Assembly (NCBI GenBank): GCA_034003725.1
Contig: JAVEYB010000001.1
Coordinates: 518,641-582,640, forward strand
Length of the DNA: 64,000 nt
Source: Candidatus Zixiibacteriota bacterium
Lineage (GTDB): Bacteria > Zixibacteria > MSB-5A5 > GN15 > FEB-12
Reading direction: 5' to 3'
In this document: positions 39,565-45,017 of the stretch, in pieces
Numbering within the stretch: position 1 is the stretch's first letter
Layout of the letters: the number at the start of each line of letters is the position of its first letter
Program-made: the position numbers and the translations under genes
The notes under the pieces: generated by a model
What the model saw: only the letters and a program-made list of their open reading frames with translations
Told to the model about the DNA's origin: nothing
The model's database searches: none

Positions 39565-39906
39565 TTAGTCAGCGTTTTGTAAGAGAGTCCTCGTGGTCAG
39601 GATATAGGATTCTTCCGTCTGATTCGGCGTTTTGTATCCCAGCGCCGAATGCGGGTAATGCTCGTTGTACTCCTCCTTGATCGTCCGCATCAGCCGCTCG
39701 GTGTCGGCGTTCCTCTTCGGATTGTTGTAGCTGGTGAAGGCGTGGTGAACATCCAGCAACGAACAGGTCTGCATGAACCTTTTAGTGGTCGCCCGCGGAC
39801 CGCAGTGATACCCCGCGATCCGCTTGGTGTACCAGTCCAGGACCAGCATCCGGTAGGCCCAACCCGAACCGGTCATCACCTTGGTCATGTCGATCCCCAC
39901 CTTTGC
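39565..39906 (-). pseudogene. IS3-family transposase (orfB) remnant
   Basis: The C-terminal part of a DDE integrase-core transposase survives: GIDMTKVMTGSGWAYRMLVLDWYTKR (first Asp), then FTSYNNPKRNADTERL with the final Glu, then YPHSALGYKTPNQ. Between these, blocks normally present are missing without breaking the frame, including the SDNGSQ segment with the second Asp, so the protein cannot be active. It continues in frame from the receptor remnant upstream. No matching terminal inverted repeats were established. The final frame ends near the terminator of the dockerin gene. Confidence 0.8.
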
Positions 39907-40427
39907 CGGCGGCAGATCGCGCTTGCCGTCGTCGTATCCAAGCCAGTCCTTGCTTCCCTCGTTCGAAAAGAGGATCGACTTTCCCGTGGTCTGTGAGTTA
40001 TGTCCGGCCGAGGTTGAGAATGTAAAGGTCCGAACATCGGGAAAATCTTTGGTCGTCAGATCCACCGAGCCGCCGGTGAAATTGCCTGGCTTGTCCGGTG
40101 TGAATGTCTTCTGAACGGGGCATAACCGATCGCGCGAACCAGCAGTGTGACGATGCCGGTCGGTACCAGACGAATCCGGTAACTGCCGTCGAGATCGGAC
40201 TGGGAGCCCAGCTGCGTTCCCTCGATCATCACAGTCGCGCCGATAAGCGGCTCGCCGGTCCTGGAATCGAGCAGTCTGCCGCCGAGCGTCCCGGTCTCCA
40301 CTTTGTTTGTTTGGCTGTACCCGTCCACGCCGGGTGCCATCATGGCACACAGCACCGGAAGGGTCACCACGACCCGGCTGGTGATTACGCGGTTAACCGT
40401 CCTGCGCAAAGACATTCGGCTGTTCAT
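39907..40427 (-). pseudogene. TonB-dependent receptor remnant with plug deletion
   Basis: The start is intact: ATG with AGGGAG upstream, a signal peptide, and a carboxypeptidase-regulatory-like domain (GTLGGRLLDSRTGEPLIGAT, ending VRAIGYAPF). Near 40113 the frame changes, and the part after it (KTFTPDKPGNFTGGSVDLTT) belongs to a later stretch of the same receptor family. The missing stretch, normally over 100 residues, would include the early plug. The receptor then stops at DDGKRDLP and continues as a transposase. No barrel remains, so it is nonfunctional. Confidence 0.82.
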
Positions 40428-42083: not shown

Positions 42084-42920
42084 TCAGCCGCGCCCGCGCA
42101 CGAGGGATACAGCGAGGAAGGTGACGCCGGCGACCAGTATGATGGTCGGTCCGGCCGGCCAGTTGGGCGTGAAGCTGACCGCCAGGCCCAGTGTCGTGAA
42201 GACCGAACTGACGCCGACCGCAAGCAGCATAGTCTGCCACAGAGTGCGAGTGAACCGGCCCGCAACGGCTACTGGAATCGTCAGCAGTGCGATCACCAGA
42301 ATTATACCGACCACGGACACCAGCAGGACCACTGTCAGCGCCGTCAAACACAATAGCAGTATGTAATACGCGCCGACTGCCAGCCCGCGCACGCGTGCGA
42401 ATTCCTCGTCGAAACACACGGCTGAAAGCTGACGGTAGAAGAGGAAACAGACGATCACGACTACCACATCGAGCAACGCCAGCAACCGTATGTCCGAACC
42501 GGAGACCATAAGGATGTTGCCGATCAGATAACTCATCAGGTTTTCCTGATAACCCGGGGTGGCGGCGATAAAGAGGATGCCCGCAGCCATTCCGACCGCC
42601 CAGATGGCCCCGATCACGGTATCCTCGCGCTGGCGTGCCTTGAGACTGACGAACCCGATAGTGACGGCCGAAGCGAGCGCAGCCACAACCGCGCCGTGCA
42701 ACGGGTGCAGCCATGTCAGACCGTGGACAACGGCCAGATAGTGAGCGAGGCCCATCCCACCGAGAACCGAGTGCGCGATGCCGGCTGCGATGTATGAAAT
42801 GCGCCGCGCCACGACATAGGTCCCGACCACCCCGCAGGCAACTGACGCCAACAGGCCGGAGAGCAGGGCGTATTGGAGGAATGTGTGGCGGACAAGCGCG
42901 TCAAAGAAGCCCAGATTCAC
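42084..42920 (-). CDS. znuB: Zinc ABC transporter permease (ZnuB-like)
   Basis: A 278-residue ABC-3 family inner-membrane permease with about eight helices (first VRHTFLQYALLSGLLASVAC; last FTPNWPAGPTIILVAGVTFL). The start is a GTG preceded by GGGGGATC; it overlaps the ZnuC stop by 4 bases. A longer frame inside znuC is rejected. It forms the channel for the ZnuA-delivered metal. The His-rich loop of the neighbouring binding protein indicates zinc rather than manganese. Confidence 0.93.
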   Translation of the reverse strand: MNLGFFDALVRHTFLQYALLSGLLASVACGVVGTYVVARRISYIAAGIAHSVLGGMGLAHYLAVVHGLTWLHPLHGAVVAALASAVTIGFVSLKARQREDTVIGAIWAVGMAAGILFIAATPGYQENLMSYLIGNILMVSGSDIRLLALLDVVVVIVCFLFYRQLSAVCFDEEFARVRGLAVGAYYILLLCLTALTVVLLVSVVGIILVIALLTIPVAVAGRFTRTLWQTMLLAVGVSSVFTTLGLAVSFTPNWPAGPTIILVAGVTFLAVSLVRGRG

Positions 42921-43669
42921 TGAGATCCCCCGTGAAACTGCTGGTCGTGGCGGACCATTCGGATCGGCCTGCCGTACAGCTCGCTCATGATCTCGCTGTC
43001 GATGGCTGCGGTCGGATGCACATGGACATGCCCCTTGACGCACACTACCGACTTCACGAACGGTGACACAAAGGCCGGGTCGTGCGATACCATGACAATC
43101 GTCAGCTTCTCGTTCAACCGCTGCAGCAGCTCGAACACCTCCTGTTCGATCCGCAGATCGAGATTGGCGGTCGGTTCGTCCAGCAGGAGCAGCCGCGGGC
43201 GGGCTGCCAGCGCCCGCGCGATCAGGATGCGACGCTGCTGGCCGCCGGAGAGGTGAGCGAACTGCCGCTCGGCGCTGTCAGCAAGCCCAACCTCACTCAG
43301 AGCCTCCAGAGCATGGGTCCGATCTGCCCGCGAAACACGACCGACTGGATGAAAATTGCCCAACAGCCCCATCAGCACCACATCCAGCACCGTGACCGGA
43401 AACTGCGGGTCAAGACTGACATGCTGCGGCATGTAACCGATTGTCTGCCGTACGGCGTGCGGCGGCTTGCCAAGCACTGTCACCGAACCCTCGGACGGCT
43501 GCAGCAAACCGATCATGAGCTTCAGCAACGTGGTCTTCCCGCCGCCGTTCGGACCAACTATCCAGGCGAAGTCTCGGTCCACGACTCGGAGGTTCACCCG
43601 GTGGAGTACCGGGATGCCGTTGTAGGCGAAGGTGACATTGTCGATGTTGATAACTGCTGAGTCGGTCAT
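42917..43669 (-). CDS. znuC: Zinc ABC transporter ATP-binding protein (ZnuC-like)
   Basis: A 250-residue ATPase of a metal importer. Walker A is VGPNGGGKTTLLKL (38-51), the signature is HLSGGQQRRILIARAL, Walker B is RLLLLDEPTANLDL, with the H loop in TIVMVSHDPAFV. MINIDNV-type N-terminus as in ZnuC. Overlap of 4 bases with the permease shows coupling. The gene begins 76 bases after znuA; this AT-rich gap may contain an extra promoter or operator. Confidence 0.95.
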   Translation of the reverse strand: MTDSAVINIDNVTFAYNGIPVLHRVNLRVVDRDFAWIVGPNGGGKTTLLKLMIGLLQPSEGSVTVLGKPPHAVRQTIGYMPQHVSLDPQFPVTVLDVVLMGLLGNFHPVGRVSRADRTHALEALSEVGLADSAERQFAHLSGGQQRRILIARALAARPRLLLLDEPTANLDLRIEQEVFELLQRLNEKLTIVMVSHDPAFVSPFVKSVVCVKGHVHVHPTAAIDSEIMSELYGRPIRMVRHDQQFHGGSQ

Positions 43670-43745: not shown

Positions 43746-44666
43746 TCATCTGGTGGCTTGAGAAACTCCGAGGGCTTCGATCACCTCGCGGGCAACGGAC
43801 CGTAGGTTTTCCACATAGTCGTAGGCAAGCGGATCGACCAGAACGATCCGAGCCCCGATGGCGTCGGCAATAACATGGGGACTTTGTGACGCATATTGCA
43901 TTTGCACAAAAATCGCCCGCACGCTGTCAGCGGCAGCATGTTCGGTCAGCTCGGCCAGTTGACGGCTTCCCGGTTCTTTCCCTTCGCTCTGAATCGGGAC
44001 CTGTATCAACCCGTACTCGTCGGTGAAATACCCCCAGGCCGGGTGAAACACGTACATCTTCCTGCCTGCGGTTCCGTGCAGCATCTGTCTGATCTCGGCG
44101 TCGAGCGCCTCAATATCGCGTACCAGGCTGTCGAGATTCCGGCGGTATGTTTCCGCATGACCGGAATCCAACGACTCGAGTTCTCGCGCGATCGCCCTGG
44201 CATGTACGATGGCGTTCCGTGGGCTCAGCCAGGTGTGAGGGTCGTTATCGGTATGGTGATCGTGATCACCATCATGACCGTCGATTCCGGACTCCTCGGA
44301 CCGCCGCACCGGTATACCATCGCCGCTGGGGATAACCCGCATATGGGGATTCACACTGTGCAGCCTTGGCAGCAACGCCTCCTCAAACGGCACGCCGGCC
44401 ACAAAAAGGACATCCGTTGTCGCCAGCTCGGTCATCTGGCGCGGCGAGGGATCATAGGTGTGCGGTGACGAGCCCGGAGGTATCAGCACCGTGACTGCCG
44501 CATTGCCGCCTGAAATCCGATCGACAAAATACGCCTGGGGCAGGATACTCACCGCCACGTGGAGTTTTTCGTCACTGTCTTCCTGTTCGGACGTCCGGCT
44601 TCCACAACCGCTGAAAAGGGCTACGATCGCCAGCGCGGCGACAACCCACATGCGCTCACTCTTCAT
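43746..44666 (-). CDS. znuA: Zinc-binding lipoprotein (ZnuA-like)
   Basis: The substrate-binding part of the importer, 306 residues, lipid-anchored (signal MKSERMWVVAALAIVALFSG then Cys). Metal ligands of cluster A-I proteins: His in SSPHTYDPSP, His in NDPHTWLSP, His in VFHPAWGYF and Asp in VDPLAYDY. A His/Asp-rich loop (DGHDGDHDHHTDNDPH) is typical of zinc-specific members. Its start lies inside the last codons of the ribbon-helix-helix gene (11-base overlap), so expression is coupled to that regulator. Confidence 0.94.
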   Translation of the reverse strand: MKSERMWVVAALAIVALFSGCGSRTSEQEDSDEKLHVAVSILPQAYFVDRISGGNAAVTVLIPPGSSPHTYDPSPRQMTELATTDVLFVAGVPFEEALLPRLHSVNPHMRVIPSGDGIPVRRSEESGIDGHDGDHDHHTDNDPHTWLSPRNAIVHARAIARELESLDSGHAETYRRNLDSLVRDIEALDAEIRQMLHGTAGRKMYVFHPAWGYFTDEYGLIQVPIQSEGKEPGSRQLAELTEHAAADSVRAIFVQMQYASQSPHVIADAIGARIVLVDPLAYDYVENLRSVAREVIEALGVSQATR

Positions 44667-44913
44667 GGGTGCAAACCAGATGAATCTCGTGGCAGTCGGA
44701 ACACTCGGCAACCGCGTGATCGCGACAAAATTCCTCCCAGTGCCTTTTCTGCGACGGCGTCAGCGCGCCGCGCCCCTGACAGAGCGGACACAGGTTATCC
44801 AGAGCGGTCAGCAGTGCCGCCCGGATGAACTCCGACCGGTTAGGGATTCGGCTGAGCGCTTCCACGAGGGAATCATCCGCCTTAAACGTGATAATCTCGG
44901 ACTTCTGCTTCAC
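44656..44913 (-). CDS. Ribbon-helix-helix regulator with Cys/His-rich tail, likely metal sensor
   Basis: 85 residues. The N-terminal half is a ribbon-helix-helix DNA-binding domain (EIITFKADDSLVEALSRIPN, then RSEFIRAALLTAL). The C-terminal half carries six cysteines and five histidines: CPLC at 42-45, then His58, Cys63, His66, CSDCH at 71-75, His78, Cys81, His83. This suggests one or two structural or sensory metal sites. It has no ACT domain, so it is not NikR. It is first in the operon and overlaps znuA by 11 bases, so it probably represses the importer when zinc is plentiful (inference). Confidence 0.87.
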   Translation of the reverse strand: MKQKSEIITFKADDSLVEALSRIPNRSEFIRAALLTALDNLCPLCQGRGALTPSQKRHWEEFCRDHAVAECSDCHEIHLVCTHEE

Positions 44914-44953
44914 AGATCCGCCTTTTCTTATTACCCGTTTGAACTGGTGGGGT

Positions 44954-44982
44954 AGTATTACTTTTTATTACGGCATTGTCAA
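44954..44982 (-). promoter_or_regulatory. Promoter of the regulator-znuACB operon with repeated GTAATA
   Basis: Minus strand: TTGACA and AATACT are 17 bases apart. Within and next to this are GTAATA direct repeats (GTAATAAAAAGTAATA), a third copy lies downstream, and GTAATACTAC covers the -10. An operator overlapping the -10 would suit repression. Confidence 0.6.
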
Positions 44983-45017
44983 CAGGGAATTGTGGAGACA
45001 GCGGAAAAATCGGTTGG

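Follow-up and report, generated by a model that had tools for sequence, protein, structure and literature searches.

Zur represses znuABC and, in Pseudomonas aeruginosa, znuD, and AdcR, a member of the MarR family, is a zinc-responsive regulator of zinc import (PMC6103462). These are the uptake sensors given in a 2018 review in which CopG or ribbon-helix-helix (RHH) proteins go unmentioned (PMC6103462), and the open-access literature that we searched holds no description of an RHH/CopG regulator of zinc importers, only unrelated mentions. Among RHH proteins, NikR has a metal-binding domain with square-planar His3Cys nickel sites (PMC7949043), and in RelB, adjacent RHH dimers occupy the same face of the DNA at short palindromic repeats (PMC2812701).

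Here, we describe an 85-residue RHH protein encoded in a window of 64,000 nucleotides from a Candidatus Zixiibacteriota genome. As in NikR, an N-terminal RHH DNA-binding domain is joined to a C-terminal metal module, and the genes apparently controlled belong to metal homeostasis, but the tail is short and Cys-rich, the operator subsites are 10 bp apart and the linkage is to a zinc importer. The job proposed for the protein, repression of zinc uptake, is that of Zur, although fold and operator are unrelated and there is no Fur domain. AdcR differs in its MarR fold, and Pfam comparison found no sequence relation to the RHH protein. The likeness to RelB, CopG and Arc, of which RelB places adjacent dimers at short palindromic repeats, lies in operator layout, whereas the protein studied here has no toxin partner, carries a Cys/His module and is encoded beside metal-transport genes.

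An RHH gene heads a zinc importer operon

Pfam matches identify the three genes that follow the RHH gene as znuA, then znuC and znuB (Table 1), which bears out the preliminary description of the RHH gene as the first in a zinc importer operon. The 11-base overlap with znuA reported there also holds, since znuA starts at 44666 (ATG AAG AGT GAG CGC) and 44656 is the last base of the RHH stop codon. By motif comparison, ZnuA has a His-rich loop (GIDGHDGDHDHHTDN) and the third-ligand motif FHPAWGYF; the best NCBIfam match of ZnuC is AztA-type. The RHH open reading frame is a real gene, because 45 of the 132 phylum genomes searched, its own counted, carry homologues at 55-83% identity. Elsewhere in the window, the C-terminal part of a minus-strand open reading frame (39565-40350) resembles, by eye, an IS3-type transposase remnant.

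Table 1. Positions of the operon genes and of the putative promoter and operator elements in the window.
Feature	Coordinates	Strand	Description
RHH (CopG-type) regulator gene	44656..44913	-	GTG start, 85 aa; C-terminal Cys/His module
znuA	43746..44666	-	zinc-binding lipoprotein; PF01297 1.5e-62
znuC	42917..43669	-	ABC ATPase; PF00005 2.6e-30
znuB	42084..42920	-	ABC-3 permease; PF00950 3.3e-69
Putative operator	44955..44971	-	GTAATAA-AAA-GTAATAC, one mismatch to GTAWTACWWWGTAWTA
-35 hexamer TTGACA	44977..44982	-	similar distance from operator in most homologous loci
-10-like hexamer AATACT	44954..44959	-	17 bp from -35, overlaps operator

The protein belongs to the RHH superfamily, which is marked by an N-terminal beta strand and two helices: it matches the RHH_1 profile just below the cut-off in a Pfam scan (E=5.4e-4, 20.3 bits vs 20.5) and the NCBIfam aCcr1 RHH model under that model's cut-off (E=1.8e-6). 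As first described, it lacks the NikR ACT domain: the Pfam scan found no NikR/ACT C-terminal domain, and the chain extends just 44 residues past the RHH domain. The protein is not NikR, because this defining domain is absent. Nor did it match the FUR domain PF01475 or the Zur equivalog (Pfam, NCBIfam), or the MarR winged-helix domain (Pfam scan). By its sequence, it is none of NikR, Zur and AdcR, and would be a zinc-uptake-type repressor on an RHH scaffold.

Homologues are linked to zinc importer genes

We counted 63 RHH homologues, 45 in the phylum of the window and 18 in other phyla, from assemblies many of which are fragmented. The search of the 132 in-phylum genomes returned one homologue in each of 45 genomes, the window's own included, and all 45 adjoin a znu gene; based on ZnuA positions and local tblastn, 43 adjoin znuA, and the other two (genomes G090 and G092) adjoin znuC and znuB, with znuA located elsewhere. 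A wider sample of 386 genomes, reaching other phyla, gave eight further strong matches, every one directly preceding znuA, followed by znuC and znuB where the contig permits. Separate searches of two of those other phyla added ten homologues, eight of them adjoining znu genes, for 16 of 18 outside the phylum. The neighbourhood survey suggested in the preliminary description thus places 61 of the 63 homologues directly before zinc-importer genes, and the mostly unlinked pattern that would have spoken against the proposal was not seen. The remaining two precede an unidentified membrane protein gene (G395) and an ArsP_2-type exporter gene (G462).

We saw no toxin-like partner beside any homologue, the neighbours being znu genes (61/63) or membrane-protein genes (2). 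Searches of viral contigs and plasmids for relatives of the RHH protein gave no credible match. In G078, the znuA-like open reading frame (L147 3574-5016, 480 aa) matches ZnuA in its N-terminal part only and is followed by flagellar hook-type genes, possibly reflecting a fusion or a rearranged importer.

A conserved predicted operator overlaps the promoter

A recurrent site, GTAWTAC-N3-GTAWTA with WWW as the recurring spacer, lies upstream of the RHH genes; this predicted operator, which the preliminary description does not mention, is found in front of 55 of the 63 homologues, at a position overlapping the -10 hexamer of a promoter with TTGACA. In the first set of 31 loci from 30 genomes (L004 and L006 are one contig), all 31 upstream regions carry it with ≤2 mismatches, where 0.1 would be expected from dinucleotide shuffles. 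In the extended set, the count is 47 of 55 loci vs 0 of 55 control stretches of equal size from the same loci, none of which fell below 4 mismatches. The site is also present in the other 15 in-phylum genomes with a homologue, in G018 by inference across a contig break, and, with ≤2 mismatches, in front of 10 of the 18 homologues from other phyla. The eight members of the G249 clade have a diverged upstream site, typically GTGATAATATTTTGTGACAC.

At most loci, TTGACA lies 4-6 bp ahead of the operator, and a -10-like hexamer at 16-18 bp spacing falls inside it, in its downstream half. In the window, where one half of the operator is imperfect, the predicted site falls within the stretch proposed earlier for binding assays (44920-45000). 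Consensus boxes of Fur, Zur and PerR fit the region upstream of the window operon poorly, and a functional zur site in front of the operon, which would have counted against the RHH protein as its regulator, is not evident there.

Each GTAWTAC subsite is palindromic, with 10 bp between the centres of the pair. The layout typical of RHH operators, in which short palindromes neighbour each other at a distance of roughly one helical turn, is thus present in 47 of the 55 regions, and by analogy with RelB (PMC2812701) it would be that expected for two RHH dimers side by side on one helix face. The NikR half-site is GTAT-like and resembles GTAWTAC. Linkage and the conserved predicted operator together support the candidacy of the RHH protein as regulator of the operon, with zinc sensing a further step of inference.

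The operator, as GTATTACAATGTAATAC and again accompanied by TTGACA, also occurs before genes for a BrnT-like toxin and its CopG-type antitoxin in G100 (L118 926), a genome in which we detected no RHH regulator homologue.

The operator recurs at unlinked zinc-uptake genes

Two genomes, G090 and G092, have the importer genes on separate contigs as RHH-znuCB and znuA-DUF192 units, and the operator is present at both promoters. It is also present at the znuA promoter of G091, an incomplete genome and the exception to the rule that genomes with an operator near znu genes also have the RHH gene. The operator is thus found at zinc-uptake promoters that include unlinked ones. One such exact site in G092 stands ahead of genes for a small exported protein rich in Cys and His, a 292-aa protein and a TonB receptor, the last with ZnuD as its best NCBIfam match (9e-65, below the curated cut-off). 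Operators with one mismatch precede genes for a small Cys/His-rich protein and for a TonB receptor in two genomes of other families, G082 and G045; for the receptor of G082, a haem-type model ranks first and ZnuD third.

The small Cys/His-rich proteins between operator and TonB receptor gene (L126 1924-2226, L143 4509-4814 and L138 3994-4197) are exported or membrane proteins and come from three bacterial families; that of L126, the one scanned, has no Pfam match. In G462, a second exact operator (L203 1501) precedes a gene for a His-rich lipoprotein.

The window's own genome has a single exact GTAWTANNNNGTAWTA site, at the promoter of the operon itself. One-mismatch sites, mostly intragenic among those inspected, are no commoner than those of a control pattern (9 vs 12), and we claim no wider regulon there. 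An expanded regulon in G067, suggested by ten motif clusters, was rejected, as nine are in copies of a dispersed repeat; each copy, on nine contigs (L104-L112), contains the operator sequence, either by chance or as a decoy.

Proposed mechanism

What we observe is the gene context, the conserved operator with its promoter overlap and its recurrence at unlinked targets, and the conserved ligand-type residues of the tail. Because gene context, operator and unlinked targets point the same way, the RHH protein is very likely a regulator of zinc uptake, as judged from sequence. We infer that it binds the operator as two dimers and represses, with zinc as both ligand and corepressor, and on balance it is probably a zinc-corepressed autorepressor of the zinc importer. 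Such a protein would combine the RHH DNA-binding domain with a Cys/His metal module of ~44 residues. Once loaded with zinc, the module would bring two RHH dimers side by side onto the two palindromic GTAWTAC subsites, where they would mask the -10 hexamer and so turn RHH-znuABC transcription off. When zinc is scarce, the RHH protein would be released and the importer made. Separate znuA units and TonB-receptor operons would come under this operator as well in some relatives.

Which metal is sensed

RHH-linked SBPs average 4.1 His in the 45-residue stretch preceding the site-2 His, compared with 1.5 in the other set, and most of them carry FHPxxGYF where most of the others carry AHDAFxYF. This contrast is if anything understated because the sets are partly mixed: L060 and L063, placed in the "other" set, are linked to an RHH gene, and the RHH set includes an L128 SBP that is the second, MntR-type protein of that locus. 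In the window's own genome, the second SBP cluster is headed by an MntR-type regulator and has an SBP with a different ligand motif. The SBP motifs and His loops, together with the ZnuD-like receptor, point to zinc, short of proof, and zinc is the likely ligand of the regulator.

A repressor that responds to another metal (e.g. Mn, Fe, Ni or Co) or to a broader set of metals is unlikely, although this ABC transporter family carries several metals and sensor ligand sets leave specificity unfixed. The ArsP_2-type exporter behind the G462 homologue fits such a repressor, and the genes behind the G395 and G462 homologues suggest that the RHH family may not be strictly zinc-specific. Against it stand the linked SBPs, most of which combine a His-rich loop with FHPxxGYF rather than the AHDAFxYF of the MntR-type cluster, the ZnuD-like TonB receptor among operator-bearing operons, and a Cys-rich ligand set that suits Zn.

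The Cys/His tail

The tail of the window protein, residues 42-85 (CPLCQGRGALTPSQKRHWEEFCRDHAVAECSDCHEIHLVCTHEE), contains the six Cys and five His counted in the preliminary description, and the 85-aa open reading frame is as given there. The composition is thus sound, but C63, H75, H78 and H83 are not conserved among homologues. In contrast, C42, C45, H66 and C81 are invariant in the 55 distinct homologues, C71 is present in 54 of 55, and H58 and C74 in 46 each. The pattern suggests a core metal site of C42, C45, H66 and C81 and a second site of H58, C71 and C74, and the second site may be more closely tied to control of zinc importers than the core.

The eight G249-clade sequences (L188-L195) have Cys in place of H58 and have lost C74, which looks like a ligand exchange that occurred once, in one clade; here the upstream site is GTGATAATATTTTGTGACAC-like, so that operator and tail are both altered. 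The G462 variant (L198 5891-6163) is without H58, C71 and C74, and a gene for a His-rich small protein is also downstream.

With 30 sequences, AlphaFold2 folded the tail confidently (pLDDT 89.3), whereas 15 sequences gave a poor model (70.7). The model (84-residue chain numbering) has helices at 13-20, 25-38 and 52-64 and a hairpin at 65-69/76-80, the last helix and the hairpin making up the tail behind RHH helix 2; the RHH beta strand is unassigned in the monomer. Reasoning on tail geometry from secondary structure, the predicted hairpin would put H66 near C81 at its base and C71/C74 at its tip. PDB sequence and fold searches returned no convincing solved relative of the protein or its tail.

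The tail shares a CPxCxGxG-type knuckle with the modules of anti-TRAP and DnaJ, but the likeness is weak and at motif level, with no fold match (DnaJ_CXXCXGXG, E=0.046 in Pfam; anti-TRAP profile, E=0.0017-0.026). Modules of this type are often structural, and RHH antitoxins repress without metal. Should the zinc of this anti-TRAP-like tail be purely structural, the protein might sense thiol oxidation or a small molecule, or act as a constitutive autoregulator. We consider this very unlikely given the zinc-importer partner genes of 61 of the 63 homologues, the lack of a toxin-like neighbour at any of them, and the operator at unlinked zinc-uptake genes, where a mere autoregulator need not have sites.

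Fur-family proteins

The earlier statement that no Zur is seen holds within the window. The genome as a whole has three Fur-family proteins, none of which reaches the Zur model cut-off: a PerR-like protein encoded next to a Dps-like gene, a second protein next to a FeoA-like gene, and a third that is PerR/Irr-like. These three could include an unrecognised Zur. We detected no Fur-family protein in the in-phylum RHH genomes G069 (97% complete), G036, G067, G078, G081 and G087, or in G167, G249, G312 and G433 outside the phylum, and eight of these (all but G249 and G433) keep the operator. In G199, a Fur-family gene adjoins the RHH gene, so both regulators may coexist there. The Fur gene ~3.3 kb downstream of znuA in G103 was considered as a Zur and rejected, as it scores PerR-like.

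That Zur or another Fur-family protein controls the operon, with GTAWTAC as its box and the RHH protein as an accessory, is scarcely credible despite the three proteins of the window's genome and the G199 gene pair, given the eight Fur-less genomes that keep the operator, the poor fit of the Fur, Zur and PerR boxes, and the tracking of RHH-bearing genomes by operators near znu genes, incomplete G091 apart.

Implications

If the RHH protein is the zinc-corepressed repressor proposed here, its homologues may, more tentatively, constitute a new multi-phylum family of RHH metalloregulators with a largely fixed operator, a GTAWTAC pair, and an invariant C42-C45-H66-C81 set, in which a changeable H58-C71-C74 site sets the metal system; this broader reading is possible, if somewhat short of probable. 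If it is true, members with H58-C71-C74 would mostly govern zinc uptake, and a member without the site a heavy-metal transporter. The RHH proteins would then add to Zur and AdcR a third structural type of sensor for zinc uptake, on a scaffold known for nickel from NikR, and would explain the control of zinc import in lineages without a recognisable Zur. The RHH domain, the CPxCxGxG...H...H...CxxC...C tail and the GTAWTAC operator would provide an annotation signature, and the operator would make the zinc regulon predictable in many uncultured bacteria. At 85 residues, the system may also serve as a very small model for how metal specificity is set.
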